A stretch of 64,000 nucleotides of DNA from Tetrahymena thermophila SB210 (taxonomy: Eukaryota > Ciliophora > Oligohymenophorea > Hymenostomatida > Tetrahymenidae): positions 1 through 64,000 of the forward strand of contig NW_002476536.1 of the NCBI RefSeq assembly GCF_000189635.1, given 5' to 3'. Made by a program: the position numbers and the translations under genes. Positions 3,298 through 32,734 of this stretch are shown here, piece by piece; position 1 is the first letter of the stretch; each line of letters starts with the position of its first letter. The notes below the pieces were generated by a model. The model ran no database searches and was not told the DNA's origin. It saw only the letters and a program-made list of their open reading frames with translations.

Positions 3298-4007
3298 ATT
3301 TTTTTTTTTTCATTAATAATATTCAACATAATGCATAATAAATATTTATTTTTTTATATTTTACTTGTATTGATATCATGAAGAAGGAAGGTTAAGTGAA
3401 ATCTTCTTATATATAATATATTATTTCACCATATACTATAATAATGTATCTATCCTCTTTACAAATCGACTTTACTTTTAGACTGATAGAGTATTTATTA
3501 TCACTAAACCTGGAACTTTTTTTCAGTGTACCCTTTAGATATTAAATTCAGTTTGTGAATTTCGTTGGTTTGTGTTTTTATTTATTTTTCATTATATTTT
3601 TTTTATTTTTTTATTTTAAATTAAACCTAATCCGGGTATTAAAATACAATGCTATCTTATTCATAATATTTTAATAACTGGATGAGTAATATTTATTATA
3701 AAACTAAAGTAATTGCTAAAAAAACAAAATTTTTTAAACATCTTTTAAAAATTTATTCAAATAACATAAATCATTAATGAATATTTCATTATTTAAGCTT
3801 AAAAAATATTAAATAAATATAAATTTAACCATAATTAATTAATAATATTGATTGTATGTTTATATATTTTTAACAAATAAATATATTGTAAATCTTAAAT
3901 ATACTTTTGGTAAAGGACATTAAATTTTAAATTATCATCATTATTAATTAATTAATTAAATTACTTTAATATTTAATTTTAGTTACTCACTCAATAATAT
4001 ATATATT
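3298..4007. other. AT-rich intergenic stretch, no gene seen
   Basis: The stretch carries long A and T runs, a short TAAT repeat near 3940-3955 and no frame that looks coding. The somewhat less AT-rich segment 3380-3560 could be a remnant flanking the mariner fossil, but I cannot assign it. Confidence 0.5.
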
Positions 4008-5269: not shown

Positions 5270-6403
5270 TATGGATATGTTTTTTTTATTTTTTAATTAA
5301 TTTGATTGCTTAATCTTTTATTAGTTTATTTTTTGAAATAATTTTTAAAAATCTGATAAATTTTAATTAAGTATATGATAAATTTTGAAAAAAAATTATT
5401 TGGCTCATTAAAAAATATTTTTTATTGTATAAAGTTATATATTTATTTTATGGAATAGATAGAATAAAACAATTTTTTAAAAAGGTGTAATAATAAAAAT
5501 GCAAAATAAAATATTTCATTGATTTTTAATAAAATAAAATTTCATTTTTTAATCCATTTTTTATGCCTTTGTTTATTCAATATGGAAAATTATCTATTTA
5601 ATTCCATAAAATTAGCAAAATTAAGCAATAAATGAATATCTATTAAAATAATATAAATTAAATTGTCATATCTCAAGATAATATCCTGGGCTTTTTTATT
5701 TAAATTTAATTAAAATAAAGGCTAACTCATTCCATTTTAAATATAAAAATATGAATTTTAGTGTAAGGGTTAAGTATTTACTTATTTTTATTCAACAAAT
5801 TTAAGCTATTTTATTATTAAATGAAAAAAAAGGTACAATACATAATATAAATCTTTAAAATAAAAATGAGAAAAAAAAGAACTCTATTTAAAATCTTGAA
5901 TTAATCTAAAATATTAGTTTGCTAAAAATAAATTAATTTTGCAACAATATTAATTTCTATCTAAATAACAGATCTTTATCAAATCTTTTAATAATATATT
6001 TTTTGCTATTATATTAAATTCATTAAAAAAAATTAATTTTAGATATTGATTGATGGCTTTTAAGAATTAAAATTAATTAACAACAATTTGCAAACTGTAT
6101 TTATAAACTGTAATTTTAATATAATTTGAGAACGTGTTAATTAAAAAAAATGTTTTATATATTTTACAAAACCACAAAAATTAAAATAAAAATTAAAATT
6201 TGATTTCTCCCTGAGGTTTTATTTAAATCATGGTATCTATTTAATCATGAAAATAAAAAAAAGATAGAAATATGATTGGTGGATAATATTTCAGACACAA
6301 ATATAACTGGAATATAAAAGCTTGGCATTTATATTATTTATTATGAAATAATATAACACTAAAAGTTTCAAATTATTTGATTGTTTTTGGAGATACCATA
6401 GGG
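5270..6403. other. Gene-free AT-rich intergenic region
   Basis: This stretch separates the minus-strand gene ending at 5269 from the first composite repeat element. It is made of A/T homopolymers and ATTAAT-type words. I see no gene, RNA or repeat that I can support. Confidence 0.5.
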
Positions 6404-9400
6404 TTGCTTAAGAGGAATTAATTTATTTAAATAAATTTTATTTTTTTATAAATTATAAATAATTTATTTACTTACAAAAATAAATAAATATGAATGATAT
6501 TTATAAATATAAAAGCAATAATAAAATCTATCTATATGTTTATATTTTAGTTTAAAAAAAACTTTTTCAAAATATTATATAATATTATTCAAACATTTAA
6601 TATTTATTCATCCTTTTTTCGTCACTTCTTTATCATCAGAATACTTTTTAAAAGACAACTAATCTTTTAGATTTAAGACACTTGCTTATTACTTTGAATT
6701 TTTATGATTCGTTCATTGAGCTAAAAATTTTATAATAAATTTGTGTAAATTTTAAATAAATATCAAAATAGAATAAACTTTTAAAGTAAAATTATTTCTT
6801 AAATTAATAAATAAAATAGCATTAGTGGAAGAAAATATATAAAAAAATAAATCAAATAAAATCTATGAAATAAATTCAAAGAATTTTATTGTTTTTAATT
6901 AGTTTTTATAATTAAAAATATCACAATCCAAAACAAAAAAACTGTTTTTACTCAAGCAAAAGTGTCAAATTTGTGAGATTAATGCATTTTGCTATAGCAG
7001 AACCTAAGCCTGATGTACCTTCGTCACCAATTTAATTTAAACTTTTTAAATATTGAAGAAAAGATATCATTAAATAGTTAATTAGAAGGAAAAAATGAAC
7101 AAAAAATATGAAATCATAAGATTAATTAATAAATAAAAAAGCAAAAGTTGAAAAAAAATGATGAGCCAAATTAACGAAGAAAGAAAGAACAAAAAAAAGT
7201 AAGCACAATAAAAAGAAAAGGAAAAAAGAGCTTTATTGTTTTTAATTAGTTTTTATAATTAAAAATATCACAATCCAAAACAAAAAAACTGTTTTTACTA
7301 AAGCGAAAGTGTCAAATTTAAGAGATTAATGCAATTTGCTAAAGCAGAACCTAAGCCTGATGCACCCATTGCACCAATTTTATTCTGACTTTTTAAATAT
7401 TCAAGAAAAATTATATCCTTAAATAGTTAATTAGAAGGAAAAAATGAAGAAAAAACATGAAATAATAAGAAATTAATTAATAATAAAAGCAAAAGTTAAA
7501 AATAAAATGATGAGCTAAATTCACAATGAAAAGAAAAAGAAAATAGAGCTTTATTGTTTTTAAATTAGTTTTTATAATTAAAAATATCATAATCCAAAAC
7601 AAAAAAACTGTTTTTACTAAAGCCTAAGTGTCAAATTTGAGAGATTAATGCATTTTGCTAAAGCAGAACCTAAGTCTGATGCACCTTCATCACCAATTTA
7701 ATTCCAACTTTTTAAATATTGAAGAAAAAATAAATCATTAAATAGTTAATTAGAAGGAAAAAATGAAGAAAAAATATGAAATAATAAGATTAATTAATAA
7801 ATATAAAAGCAAAAGTTGAAAAAAAATGATGAGCCAAATTAACGAAGAAAGAAAGAACAAAAAAAGTAAGCACAATAAAAAGAAAAAGAAAAAAGAGCTT
7901 TATTGTTTTTAATTAGTTTTTATAATTAAAAATATCACAATCCAAAACAAAAAAACTATTTTTACATAAGCGAAAGTGTCAAATTTGAGAGATTAATGCA
8001 TTTTGCTAAAGCAGAACCTAAGCCTGATGTACCTTCGTCACCAATTTAATTTTAACTTTTTAAATATTGAAGAAAAAATAAATCATTAAATAGTTAATTA
8101 GAAGGAAAAAATGAAGAAAAAATATGAAATAATAAGATTAATTAATAAATAAAAAAGCAAAAGTTGAAAAAAAATGATGAGCCAAATTAACGAAGAAAGA
8201 AAGAACAAAAAAAAGTAAGCACAATAAAAAGAAAAAGAAAAAAGAGCTTTATTGTCTTTAATTAGTTTTTATAATTAAAAGTATCACAATCCAAAACAAA
8301 AAAACTGTTTTTACTAAAGCGAAAGTGTCAAATTTGAGAGATTAATGCAATTTGCTAAAGCAGAACCTAAGCCTGATGCACCCATTGCACCAATTTTATT
8401 CTGACTTTTTAAATATTCAAGAAAAATTATATCCTTAAATAGTTAATTAGAAGGAAAAAATGAAGAAAAAACATGAAATAATAAGAAATTAATTAATAAT
8501 AAAAGCAAAAGTTAAAAATAAAATGATGAGCTAAATTAACAAAGAAAGAAAGAACAAAAAAAAGCAAGCACAATAAAAAGAAAAAGAAAATAGAGCTTTA
8601 TTGTTTTTAAATTAGTTTTTATAATTAAAAATATCACAATCCAAAACAAAAAAACTGTTTTTACTCAAGCCTAAGTGTCAAATTTGAGAGATTAATGCAA
8701 TTTGTTAAAGCAGAACCTAAGCTTGATGCACCTTCGTCACCAATTTAATTGCCACTTTTTAAATATTACCATTAAATAGTTACTTAGAAGGAAAAAATCT
8801 AGAAAAAATATGAAATAATAAGAAATTAATTAATAATAAAAGCAAAAGTTGAAAATAAAATGATGAGCTAAATTAGCAAAGAAAGAAAGAATAAAAAAAA
8901 GCAAGCATAATAAAAAGAAAAAGAAAAAAGAGCTTTATTCTTTTAAATTAGTTTTTATAATTAAAAATATCACAATCCAAAACAAATAAACTGTTTTTAC
9001 ATAAGCGAAAGTGTCAAATTTGAGAGATTAATGCAATTTGTTAAAGCAGAACCTAAGCTTGATGCACCTTCGTCACCAATTTAATTGCCACTTTTTAAAT
9101 ATTGAAGAAAAAATATATCATTAAATAGAGTAAGTTGTCATACAAATTTCCAAAAAGCGAGTTTTATATACTAGTTTTTACATTTTATAAAATTAAAATT
9201 CTAAATATTTTTTCCGAATTTTTTTTCATCCCAAAGCTTTCTAAAAACTCAAAAATAAAGCTGTTTTAAGCTTATTTAGCTTTATTTATTATATATTTTG
9301 CTATTTATAAATTAAATAGGCATTTCACTCTTGTTAATTAGAAGGAAAAAATGAAGAAAAACTTTTATTAAGTATAAGTTTTAATAGCAAAAAATAAAGA

Positions 9401-10036
9401 AAAAATATCAAATTATAAAAAATGAATAATAAATAATTAATTAAAAATTGAAATGAAAATTAAGTTAAAATAACTAAAAAATTTTTGTTTTAATAAAAAT
9501 CAATAAATAATGATGATAATTTCTATAATAAAAATTATTTATTTAAATAAATTGAAATTAAAATATATAAAAAATATAAAAAATTATTAAAATAATATTT
9601 ATAAATAAAATATACCTCAGATTAATATGGAGAGCCTAATGAGATAAAAGTGAAGAGCTTAAAAACTTTTTTTATTAATTTATATTAATTTAAAGGATAT
9701 TAATAAAAAAATTAATAATTACTTCTTCTAAATTATTATAATTTTTAATCTATTATATCATTTATTATTTTTTTCAAAAATATTGAATAGCAAGCAATTT
9801 ATGAAATTTAATTAACTAATTAATTATAAATGGATAAAAAGAACAAATAAATATATTAATTAATTAATTAATTATCAAATATTAATTTATATATTTGGTT
9901 TTATGAAGGAAAAATTAATTTAACATTCATATTTTAAACTTAATATTTGTATTTAAAATATATACTTAAAAATATATATAGTAGGAATTAGAGATGGCCA
10001 GTTATTTATTTAGTCATTATTTGAAAAAATTCTAGT
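6404..10036 (+). repeat. Composite repeat element, copy 1 (left end + 7-unit array + right end)
   Basis: The element has three parts. The left end (6404 to ~6885) shares AAGAGGAATTAATTTATTTA, ATTTATTTACTTACAAAAAT and GACACTTGCTTATTACTTTG with the copies at 41249 and, inverted, at 32.6 kb. Then come about seven tandem ~320-350 b units, with CACAATCC-type anchors at 6922, 7269, 7589, 7936, 8285, 8635 and 8971. The right end (~9125-10036) carries AGCTTTATTTATTAT, CCTAATGAGATAAAA, CAAAAATATTGAATAGCAAG and GAAAAAATTCTAGTA. The right end is shared nearly base for base with copy 3 and, inverted, with copy 2. I see no terminal inverted repeats, no transposase and no obvious target-site duplication. 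It does not resemble the ciliate element families I know by structure. Confidence 0.8.
6888..9125 (+). repeat. Tandem array, ~345-b units, 7 copies
   Basis: Each unit holds, in order, a fixed 50-70 b core (TTTGAGAGATTAATGCA...CCTAAGCCTGATGCACC), a TTTTTAAATAT...ATCATTAAATAGTTA stretch, AGAAGGAAAAAATGAAGAAA, a purine-rich AAAGAAAAAGAAAA tract, GAGCTTTATTG and ATCACAATCCAAAACAAA. Two unit subtypes occur, with GCACCCATTGCACCAATTT or GCACCTTCGTCACCAATTT after the core, which suggests unequal exchange or conversion. In the ciliate code the core reads as a conserved peptide (see findings). Confidence 0.9.
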
Positions 10037-28000: not shown

Positions 28001-30994
28001 TCAAATTTAACACTTGATCTTGGGTAAAAACAGTTTATTTAGGATTGGGATATTTTTAAATATAAAAGCTAATTAAAAACAATAAAGCTCTTTTTTCTTT
28101 TTATTTTTATTTTGATTGCTTTTTTGTTCTTTCTTTGTTAATATAGCTCATCATTTTATTTTAAACTTTTGCTTTTATTATTAATTAATCTTATTATTTC
28201 ATATTTTTTCTTCATTTTTTCCTTCTAATTAACTATTTAATGATATATTTTTTCTTCAATTTTTAAAAAGTTCGAATAAAATTGGTGATTAAGGTGTAAC
28301 AGGCTTAGGTTCTGCTCTAGCAAATTGCATTAATCTCTCAAATTTGACACTTAATCTTCGGTAAAAATAGTTTATTTATTTTCGATTGTGATATTTTTAA
28401 TAAAAAAATTTAATAAAAACAATAAATCTCTTATTTCTTTTTCTTTTTTATTTTGATTGCTTTTTTTGTTCTTTCTTTGTTAATTTAGCTCATCATATTA
28501 TTTTCAACTTTTGCTTTTATTATTTATTTCTTATTATTTCATATTTTTTCTTCATTTTTTCCTTCTAATTTACTATTTAATGATATATTTTTTCTTCAAT
28601 ATTTAAAAAGTTCGAATAAAATTGGTGCAATAGGTGCATTAAACTTAGGTTCTTCTTTAGCAAATTGCATTAATCTCTCAAATTTGACACTTGATCTTCG
28701 GTAAAAATAGTTTATTTGTTTTTGATTGTGATATTTTTAATTATAAAAGCTAATTAAAAATAATAAAGCTCTTTTTTCTTTTTCTTTTTCTTTTGATTAC
28801 TTTTTTTGTTCTTTTTTTGTTAATATAGCTCATCATTTTATTTTCAATTTTTGCTTTTATTATTAATTAATCTTTCTTATTATTTCATATTTTTCTTCAC
28901 TTTTTCCTTCTAATTAACTATTTAATGATATATTTTTTCTTCAATAAAAAGTTCGAATAAAATTGGTGCAACGGGTGCATCAAACTTAGGTACAGCTTTA
29001 GCAAATTGTATTAATCTCTCAAATTTGACACTATGGCTTTAGTAAAAACTGTTTATTTATTTTGGATTGTGATATTTTTAATTATAAAAACTAATTAAAA
29101 ACAATAAAACTCTTTTTTTTATTTTTCTTTTTATTGTGCTTGCTTTTTTGTTCTTTCTTTGTTAACCTATTAGCTCATCATTTTATTTTTAACTTTTGTT
29201 TTAATTATTAATTATTAATTAATCTTATTATTTCATATTTTTTCTTCATTTTTTCCTTTTAATTAACTATTTAATGATATATTTTTTCATCAATATTTAA
29301 ACAGTGAAAATTAAATTGGTGCAATGGGTGCATCAGACTTAGGTTCTGCTTTAGCAAATTGCATTAATCTCTCAAATTTGACACTTGATCTTCGGTAAAA
29401 ACAGTTAATTTGTTTTTGATTGTGATATTTTGAATTATAAAAACTAATTAAAAACAATAAAGCTCTTTTTTCTTTTTCTATTTATTGTTCTTGCTTTTTT
29501 TTTGCTCTTCTTTTGTTAATTTAGCTCATCATTTTATTTTCAACTTTTGCTTTTATTATTAATTAATTTTATTATTTCATATTTTTTCTTCATTTTTTCC
29601 TTCTAATTTAATACTATTTAATGATATATTTTTTCTTCAATATATCAAAAGTTCGAATAAAATTGGTGCAATGGGTGTCTCAAACTTAGGTTCTGCTTTA
29701 GCAAATTGCATTAATCTCTCAAATTTGACGTTTGATCTTCGGTAAAAACAGTTTATTTGTTTTTGATTGCGATATTTTTAATTATAAAAACAAATTAAAA
29801 AGAATAAAGCTCTTTTTTCTTTTTCTTTTTATTGTGCTTGCTTGCTTTTTTTGTTATTTCTTTGTTAATTTAGCTCATTATTTTATTTTAAACTTTTGCT
29901 TTTATTATTAATTAATCTTATTATTTCATATTTTTTCTCCATTTTTTTCTTCTAATTTACTATTTAATGAGATATTTTTTCTTCAATATTTAAAAAGTTC
30001 AAATAAAATTGGTACAATGGGTGCATCAGGCTTAGGTTCTGCTTTAGCAAATTGCATTAATCTCTCAAATTTGACACTTAATCTTAGGTAAAAACAGTTT
30101 ATTTGTTTTGGATTGTGATATTTTTAATTATAAAAACTAATTAAAAACAATAAAGCTCTTTTTTTCTTTTTCTTTTTATTGTCCTTGCTTGCTTTTTTTT
30201 GTTCTTTCTTTATTAATTTAAGTCATCATTTTATTTTAAAATTTTGCTTTTAACATTAATTTATCTTATTATTTCATATTTTTTCTTCATTTTTTCCTTC
30301 TAATTAACTATTTAATGATATATTTTTTCTTCAATATTTAAAAAGTTCTAATAAAATTGGTTCAATGGGTGCATCAGGCTTAGGTTCTGGTTTAGCAAAT
30401 TGCACTAATCTCTCAAATTTGACACTTGATCTTAGGTAAAAATAGTTTATTTGTTTTGGATTGTGATATTTTCAATTATAAAAACTAATTAAAAATAATA
30501 AAGCTCTTTTTTCTTTTTCTTTTTATTGCGCTTGCTTTTTTTTGTTCTTTCTTTGTTAATTTAGCTCAACATTTTATTTTTTCTTAATTTTTTCCTTCTA
30601 ATTAACTATTTAATGATATATTTTTCTTCAATATTTAAAAAGTGAAAATTAAATTGGTGCAATTGGTGCATCAGGCTTAGTTTCTGCTTTAACAAATTGC
30701 ATTAATCTCTCAAATTTGACACTTGATAATCGGTAAAAACAGTTTATTTGTTTTGGATTGTGATATTTTTAATTATAAAAACTAATTAAAAACAATAAAA
30801 TTCTTATTTCTTTTTCTTTTTGTTGTGCTTGCTTGCTTTTTTTTGTTTTTTCTTTGTTAATTTAGCTTATCGTTTTATTTTCAAATTTTGCTTTTATTAT
30901 TAATTAATCTTTTATTTCATATTATTTCTTCATTTTTTCCTTCTAATTAACTATTTAATGATATATTTTTTCTTCAATATTTAAAAAGTAAAAA

Positions 30995-31430
30995 TTTAAT
31001 TGGTGATACATACATACATACATACTCGCACATGGTTACATGCACTCGGGATAGGGGCCCTATATATAATTACTTATACATTATTATTATACGTATACCA
31101 ATTTATTTATATATAATTGTGGGTAATATACTAGAAGGGAAGGGTCACCTACACCCTAATGGCATTTCTACTAATCTTCCATGATTTGACTACGCATTAT
31201 GCTCGCTTCCCATTTGTATTCCAGATCTTCTGTTCAGAATGGGGCCTCCTCTTTACCTCCTATCAGATTTGGCCCTTCCCTCCTACCAAGGAGACCGCTG
31301 GTAACATTCACATTTTTACATTGAATTTTTCGAAATAAAGGGGGCGGTATAGGATTCGAACCCCCGATATCACTGCTAAGACCCTCCGACTCGCCCACTC
31401 GAGTCGCTTAGCCCTTCTTTAATTGGTGAT
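30995..31430 (-). mobile_element. tRNA-derived SINE with 13-b target-site duplication
   Basis: A 410-b segment (31008-31417) interrupts a unit of the array and is flanked by identical copies of TTTAATTGGTGAT (30995-31007 and 31418-31430), the unit sequence itself. Read on the minus strand, the element opens with a tRNA-like head: an A-box-like GACTCGAGTGGG and, ~32 b on, a perfect B box GGTTCGAATCC (RNA polymerase III promoter elements). A ~300-b unrelated body follows. It ends in a (GTAT)n tail next to the duplication. The body is strikingly GC-richer than everything around it. This is the structure of a tRNA-derived SINE mobilised by a LINE-type machinery. No intact cloverleaf can be drawn, so it is not a working tRNA gene. 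Confidence 0.88.
31334..31417 (-). promoter_or_regulatory. Internal Pol III-type promoter (A and B boxes) in the SINE head
   Basis: On the minus strand the head holds GACTCGAGTGGG (A-box-like, one or two mismatches to the tRNA consensus) at ~31390-31405 and GGTTCGAATCC (exact B box) at ~31351-31361. The spacing is in the usual tRNA range. No T-run terminator follows within the element body that would obviously cut transcription short. Confidence 0.7.
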
Positions 31431-32734
31431 GAAGGTGCATCAGGCTTAGGTTCTGCTTTAGCAAATTGTATTAATCTTTCAAATTTGACACTTAATCTTC
31501 GGTAAAAACAGTTTATTTGTTTTGGATTGTGATATTTTTAATTATAAAAACTAATTGAAATTATAAAACTCTTTTTTCTTTTTCTTCCTGCTTTTTTTTG
31601 TTCTTTATTTCTTTCTTTGTTAATTTAGCTCATCATTTTATTTTAAACTTTTGCTTTTATTATTAATTAATCTTATTATTTCATATTTTTTCTTTATTTT
31701 TTCATTTTAATTAACTATTTAATGATATATTTTTTCTTCAATATTAAAAAGTGAAAATTAAATTGGTGCAATGGGTGCATCAGTCTTAGGTTCAGGTTTA
31801 GCAAATTGCATTAATCTCTCAAATTTGACACTTGATCTTCGGTAAAAACAGTTAATTTGTTTTGGATTGTGATATTTTTAATTATAAAAACTTATTAAAA
31901 ACAATAAAGCTCTATTTTCTTTTTCTTTTTATTGTGCTTGCTTTTTTTTGATCTTTCTTTTTTAATATAAATCATTATTTTATTTTCAACTTTTGCTTTT
32001 ATGATTAATTAATTAATCTTATATTTTCATATTTTTTCTTCATTTTTTCCTTCTAATTTACTATTTAATGATATATTATTTCTTCAATATTTAAAAAGTA
32101 TAAATTAAATTGGTGCAATGGGTGCATCAGTTTATAAATTTTGGATTTAAATATTTTAAACTATAAAAATGAATATAAAACAAAAAAGCTCTTTGAATTT
32201 ATTTGATAGCTTTTATTTGATTTATTTTTTTATCTTTTTTATTCCACTAATGTTATTATATTTATTAATTGAAGAAATAATTTTTAATTAAAAATTTTAT
32301 TCTATTTTGATATTTATTTAAAATTTATACAAATTTATTTTAATATTATTAGCCCAATGAATGCATCATAAAGATTCTAAGTAATAAGTAGGTGTCTTAA
32401 ATCAAAAAGATTAGTTGTCTTTAAAAAAGTATTCTGGTGATAAACAAGTGGTGAAAATAGGATGAATAAATATTAAATGTTTGAATAATAAAATAAATTT
32501 TATTATTTAATATTTTCAAAAAGTTTTTTCATCTAAAAGATAAATAGATAAATAGATTTTATTATTGATTTTATATTTATAAATATTATTCATATTTATT
32601 TTTGTAAGTAAATAAATTATTAAAAAAAATAAAAAAATTTAAAAATTGAAAGAGGGGATTGAATTAAAGAAACTTACTATATTCTTCTAATTTCGCATTC
32701 TTATTATCCTTTATATAAAGTTTTCAACTTCTTT

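Follow-up and report, generated by a model that had tools for sequence, protein, structure and literature searches.

The 410-bp insert in the window, a stretch of 64,000 nucleotides of Tetrahymena thermophila SB210 (contig NW_002476536.1), was found to belong to a young family of SINEs, and it is highly probable that this family is mobilised by the enzyme of the LINE Tt.REP through target-primed reverse transcription (TPRT) at one site within LRR exons. Tt.REP is a non-LTR retrotransposon, reportedly first presented by Fillingham in 2004. The evidence comprises the anatomy of the interrupted exon, the position and flanks of the copies in the genome, and a second element that occupies the same site in the same orientation.

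The SINE and the Interrupted LRR Exon

The window carries tandem units of ~350 bp, each made up of a 90-bp exon (coding ...IGDEGASGLGSALANCINLSNLTL...) and an intron of ~260 bp. The array had initially been regarded as satellite-like, a description that has to be replaced, as its units are LRR exons and introns. The two parts of the interrupted exon add up to exactly 90 nt and translate as NLIGD...LIGDEGASGLGSALANC (code 6). The original prediction of a SINE inserted with a 13-bp duplication of its target was confirmed, as were its B box, its (GTAT)n tail and its GC-rich body (Table 1). In element sense, which is the minus strand, GAAGGGCTAAGC stands at the start of the insert, the B box lies within it and (GTAT)n forms its end; its G+C content is 42%, compared to 22% for the window, and no runs of four or more T were present within the insert in element sense. 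Since the insertion adds 423 bp (410 + 13), it leaves the LRR reading frame intact; read in this frame, the element contains one TGA. The tail lengths vary among the copies, and frame-keeping is therefore not general.

Table 1. Features of the SINE insertion and of the interrupted exon (window coordinates; strand "-" corresponds to the element sense, antisense to the LRR gene).
Feature	Position	Length	Strand	Remark
LRR exon, 5' part, to insertion point	30989..31007	19 nt	+	AG at 30987-30988 precedes
Target site duplication, tail side, TTTAATTGGTGAT	30995..31007	13 bp	.	
SINE	31008..31417	410 bp	-	antisense to LRR gene
(GTAT)n tail	31008..31025		-	(ACATAC)n run on plus strand; length differs among copies
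3' core GAGTGCATGTAACCATGTGCGAGTAT	31022..31047	~26 nt	-	resembles REP-type tail; 22/26 nt vs. L043 variant
Head module	31312..31417	~106 nt	-	at 5 read loci joined to other sequence (84 to ~109 nt)
B box GGTTCGAATCC	31352..31362		-	
Target site duplication, head side, TTTAATTGGTGAT	31418..31430	13 bp	.	
LRR exon, 3' part	31431..31501	71 nt	+	next intron's GT at 31502

Copy Number and Insertion Site

The assembly searched (101 Mb, 445 contigs) is very probably the macronuclear assembly of T. thermophila, and telomere-type repeats (CCCCAA/GGGGTT) were present at two of the five contig ends read (L051, L054). A telomerase reverse transcriptase locus matched the chain of PDB 6d6v, the telomerase of T. 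thermophila, the identity being unbroken along the inner exon blocks and interrupted at introns that had been read through. An initial genome search, in which 40 of the 53 candidates were scored, returned at least 42 SINE matches. Pattern counts across the genome, allowing up to three mismatches, then stood at 44 matches for the head motif and 44 for the tail motif; because the reversed control patterns of both motifs gave 0 matches genome-wide, this signal is far above chance. In total, 51 SINE loci were distinguished, 37 of them containing both motifs, seven only the head and seven only the tail. The recent multi-copy family that had been anticipated thus exists, with 51 loci, 36 full-length copies, a median identity of 99.0% and target duplications of 12-14 bp.

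Forty-seven of the 51 loci were read (C41, C110, C37 and C403 being left out), and in 45 of these the readable junctions were located at one position of the LRR exon, with the element lying antisense to the gene. Besides full-length copies, of which 36 were read, the 45 same-site loci include two 5'-truncated copies (L043 and L045), one copy with an internal assembly gap (L044), one at a contig end (L046), and five in which the head is followed by other sequence (L055, L056, L057, L060, and L061). For four of the latter (L055, L057, L060, and L061), the assignment is based on the head-side junction only, with just 11-15 nt of flank in L060 and L061. The two off-site loci are an old 3' piece of the SINE that lies outside LRR DNA and has 88% identity over 135 bp (L058), and a diverged head fragment (L059). 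One further junction match with two mismatches (C240) was found in AT-rich DNA, where no LRR exon was recognised by eye, and was treated as a chance match.

Uninterrupted LRR exon sites were frequent: ~389 were counted in the fetched loci and the window (a few of them twice, where loci overlap), and the 31-nt consensus of the site had 2,075 matches in the genome with up to three mismatches, some of these being the head-side halves of occupied sites. Most target sites in LRR exons are therefore unoccupied.

A Second Element with a REP-Type Tail at the Same Site

In six of the fetched loci (L016, L018, L022, L033, L043, and L056), a tail of 53 nt was found directly after AATTGGTGAT, that is, at the site and in the orientation used by the SINE. 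These tails are 96-100% alike, and the commoner form ends with GAGTGCATTTATATGTGCGAGTATTTCTATTCTATTCT in element sense. The 34-nt core of the tail had 114 matches in the genome (up to three mismatches), and the 32-nt junction between exon and tail, counted separately, had 63; among 65 exact tail cores, 44 were associated with the exon junction, and 21 were found where no exon junction was recognisable.

The 53-nt piece very probably represents the conserved 3' tail of Tt.REP, an assignment that we infer because of its length, its association with LRR units, its copy number and its retention in the macronucleus. For REP, a conserved 3' tail of 54 bp has been reported to occur 169 times in the macronucleus, in association with LRR genes, while the REP body, which carries two ORFs, is described as being mostly excised from the macronucleus as an IES (PMC6564038). 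The SINE shares the LRR units with REP; unlike REP, it is non-coding, and 36 of its copies read in the macronuclear assembly are full-length. Furthermore, LRR introns are given as the favoured targets of REP (PMC6564038), whereas the junctions read in this study fall inside the LRR exon, 19 nt from the exon start in the window copy.

The 3' ends of the SINE and of the REP-type tail have GAGTGCATGT....ATGTGCGAGTAT in common, corresponding to 22 of 26 nt without gaps when the L043 variant of the tail is considered, but their terminal repeats differ, being (GTAT)n in the SINE and (TATTC)n in the tail. Hence, the LINE-type partner implied by the original prediction was retained and its expected GTAT-type tail was not: the likely partner ends with (TATTC)n and shares the ~26-nt core that precedes the repeats. 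Folding suggested a small core hairpin for the SINE and for the commoner tail, and for the L043 variant a hairpin only in a longer piece; folding of the core fragments was not better than that of shuffled sequences (z = -1.27, -0.43, and -0.65), and the third sequence was without a hairpin of the same kind.

In L043, the left half of a single exon bears the REP-type tail, followed by AT-rich DNA and then by a 5'-truncated SINE beside another copy of the target sequence; the SINE may have used a site that an earlier duplication had regenerated. In L056, the SINE head is followed by a body and a REP-type tail, and the whole is enclosed by near-identical duplications (one mismatch, by eye). The body of L056 (AAACGAGATAAACGC...) was found in three other copies with 98-100% identity (L063, L064, and L065), each within ~65 bp of a REP-type tail; L064 and L065 begin with AAAAAACTTTCC right at the LRR site, and L063 joins LRR intron sequence. 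This body is either a second short element or a remnant of REP. L056 would best fit a chimera created by a template jump from RNA to RNA during one insertion, and such jumps, including jumps to tRNA, are documented for R2 (PMC3414825). The idea suggested by L056 that REP itself starts with the SINE head was weakened, since the 5' end found at the site in two of the three other body loci is not that of the SINE. The AAAAAACTTTCC start of the REP-tailed short elements L064 and L065, unlike the SINE head, also speaks against the SINE being an internally deleted LINE.

A genome search for the reverse transcriptase of REP resulted in a single RVT_1 hit, namely L049, where a frame for a LINE-type reverse transcriptase covers 844 aa when counted from the ATG (6106-9475, G000:C134, minus strand; RVT_1, 1.3e-29). 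A frame of 190 aa lies upstream of it, and the PDB matches include R2 and LINE-1. The L049 locus was without a match to the REP-type tail, the SINE or the LRR unit, and is possibly a domesticated or surviving element.

Several observations count against mobilisation of the SINE by REP: the 21 exact tail cores with no recognisable exon junction, the off-site position of L058 and L059, the shortness of the shared core and its folding no better than that of shuffled sequences, the differing terminal repeats and the lack of a tRNA match in the head. If the partner were some other LINE acting at the LRR site, the difference between (GTAT)n and (TATTC)n would be explained, and a LINE-type reverse transcriptase gene is indeed retained in the genome (L049). 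However, we regard such a partner as rather unlikely, since the SINE and the 53-nt tail occupy the same site in the same orientation and have 3' cores that resemble each other, since the L056 chimera points to joint copying of the two RNAs in a single event, and since L049 carries none of the three sequences searched for at its locus.

It is even less probable that the site specificity is only apparent, i.e., that the SINE inserted widely in the germline and that copies outside LRR DNA were removed during macronuclear development. The macronuclear nature of the assembly, the reported removal of REP bodies as IESs (PMC6564038) and the presence of the old fragment L058 outside LRR DNA would be compatible with this scenario, but a filter for LRR DNA alone would not account for a single position, a single orientation and the same stagger of ~13 bp in a unit of ~350 bp, and the REP-type tail uses the same site.

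Independence of the Insertions

Both junctions were available for 38 copies; of these, 30 have a target duplication of 13 bp, six have one of 12 bp and two have one of 14 bp. When the two copies of L016 were counted once, 24 of the 37 duplications differed from the canonical ATCACCAATTTAA, and 22 variant forms were present. Identical 11-mers were found by a script on both sides of 37 of the 38 copies, compared to a mean of 9.3 and a maximum of 17 in 10,000 shuffles; considering only the variant 11-mers, 19 of 20 matched their own other side (shuffled mean 1.5, maximum 10). The single miss, L039, was due to a register error of the script, TGCATCAATTTAA being present on both sides. Median identities of the 300-bp flanks amounted to 77.7% on the head side and 74.7% on the tail side (38 copies), in contrast to the median of 99.0% for the elements themselves (36 full-length SINEs).

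Because the elements are 99% identical, the flanks only 75-78%, and the same exon variant occurs on both sides of a copy, the SINE copies are, judged from these comparisons, separate insertions at a homologous site, each with its own duplication. This pattern matches neither the differing target sites nor the shared flanking DNA that the original prediction had envisaged as outcomes. Tail lengths and the extra A's at the 5' junction also differ among copies, and the 5'-truncated L043 and L045 have kept their target duplications. A short multi-copy element with own duplications, a variable 3' tail and 5' truncation is a SINE bearing the marks of TPRT. At four positions of the element, variants were seen in four or more copies; they form nine combinations, which are the result of either several active source copies or recombination.

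A few of the copies may not all be independent. L016 contains two SINE copies 1.45 kb apart with identical duplications and 5' offsets, which looks like a local duplication, and two pairs of copies, the only ones with flanks >93% identical on both sides (one L016 copy being unscored on the tail side, where too little flank was available), reached 96.7% and 96.3% (L009/L022) and 93.3% and 94.3% (L036/L015). Recombination between LRR units, as unequal crossing-over or gene conversion, could have spread a single ancestral LRR-exon insertion, and these copies and the reported ectopic recombination of LRR genes (PMC6564038) would be in line with this. The reading is nevertheless mostly refuted and very improbable, as the flanks of the other copies have diverged far more than the elements, duplications bear variants specific to their locus on both sides, and tail lengths, 5'-junction A's and 5' truncations vary from copy to copy.

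The Head of the SINE

The B box is exact in the SINE of the window, and a 23-nt pattern containing it was exact in 42 of the 44 head-motif matches in the genome. The head may act as a promoter for RNA polymerase III. The A-box match was weak by eye, and no tRNA was detected in the SINE head by ARAGORN, with default and relaxed thresholds, or by Rfam, with E values up to 10. The A-box-like motif proposed earlier was thus not confirmed, and of the tRNA-headed character ascribed to the element only the B box is present; neither a tRNA origin nor a place among the tRNA-derived SINEs is established. For the diverged head fragment L059, ARAGORN with relaxed thresholds called a tRNA-Leu on the opposite strand, but with mispaired stems, and Rfam returned nothing; this candidate was rejected.

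In L055, L057, L060, and L061, the SINE head is followed by other sequence, the break being located at ~101-109 nt in three of these loci and at ~84 nt in one. These breaks possibly represent template jumps or boundaries of developmental excision.

Proposed Mechanism and Comparison with Known Systems

Mobilisation of the SINE by the REP enzyme can be pictured on the basis of the site, the orientation, the duplications, the independence of the copies and the occurrence at this site of a second element whose 3' core is similar, all of which were read from the sequences. The RNA of the SINE would be transcribed from the B-box head, probably by RNA polymerase III, and would end with the ~26-nt core and GTAT repeats. 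The Tt.REP enzyme would recognise this core, nick the LRR-sense strand after ...AATTGGTGAT and prime cDNA synthesis from that end, and the junctions suggest that the other strand would be cut ~13 bp away. Staggered cuts of this kind would duplicate 12-14 bp and leave the element in antisense orientation relative to the gene. TPRT with the first nick on the LRR-sense strand is proposed because of the constant 3' junction ...AATTGGTGAT and the stagger of ~13 bp. Behaviour like that of a stringent-type SINE at a fixed target is well supported, the sharing of a 3' end with REP is likely, and dependence on the shared tail is putative.

To our knowledge, the known site-specific LINEs use RNA genes, telomeres or satellites. 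Ribosomal RNA genes and microsatellites are named as targets of site-specific LINEs (PMC4640811). The R2 SIDEs and R2/R1 hybrid SIDEs of Drosophila resemble the SINE in being short, non-autonomous elements that use the machinery and the target of a site-specific LINE, and probably also in template jumps that join small RNAs to LINE ends; however, their target is the 28S rDNA and they are internal deletions of R1/R2 (PMC3414825), whereas the target in Tetrahymena is a protein-coding exon. The head of the Tetrahymena SINE is, moreover, unlike the 5' end of the two REP-tailed short elements, a further difference from the SIDEs. In stringent LINE/SINE pairs, such as eel UnaL2 and the pairs from plants, the 3' end of the SINE likewise resembles that of the partner LINE, but the portion of the source considered describes no fixed shared target site for them (PMC3747384). 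In Tetrahymena, the similarity covers a shorter 3' stretch, with terminal repeats that are not alike. CRE/SLACS of trypanosomatids are also LINEs with a single insertion point in a repeated gene; their target, in contrast, is the spliced-leader RNA gene rather than a coding exon, and no SINE partner of CRE is described in the respective part of the source (PMC12278014).

Reports of a SINE in Tetrahymena were not found among the literature titles surveyed, which is weak evidence that the family is new, as most subscription papers lie outside the survey; neither PMC5182062 nor PMC6564038 has a word starting with 'sine' in its main text. We consider it moderately probable that Tetrahymena possesses a LINE/SINE pair dedicated to one coding-exon position, for which the greatly expanded family of LRR exons would serve as a replenishable landing pad, as the rDNA does for R2, and that insertions, chimeras and developmental excision help to shuffle the fastest-evolving gene family of the host. 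If a SINE/LINE pair is indeed tied to a coding exon, its niche would be of a different kind. Such a pair would give a concrete mechanism for the reported association of REP with LRR genes (PMC6564038) and would move the target of REP from the intron to the exon. Furthermore, marked and countable insertions could be used for dating the expansion of the LRR genes and for testing the tolerance of the germline to hits in genes.

Further Observations at LRR Target Sites

In L014 (~813-890; G000:C181:13112), bare ATAC repeats were found at the LRR target site, the element body and ~14 nt of the exon being missing, which we read as a deletion or developmental excision that left just the tail. In L031 (~3780-3830) and L037 (~2290-2330), the 5' part of an LRR exon is replaced near the target site by AT-rich non-LRR sequence, possibly representing other insertions or their remnants.
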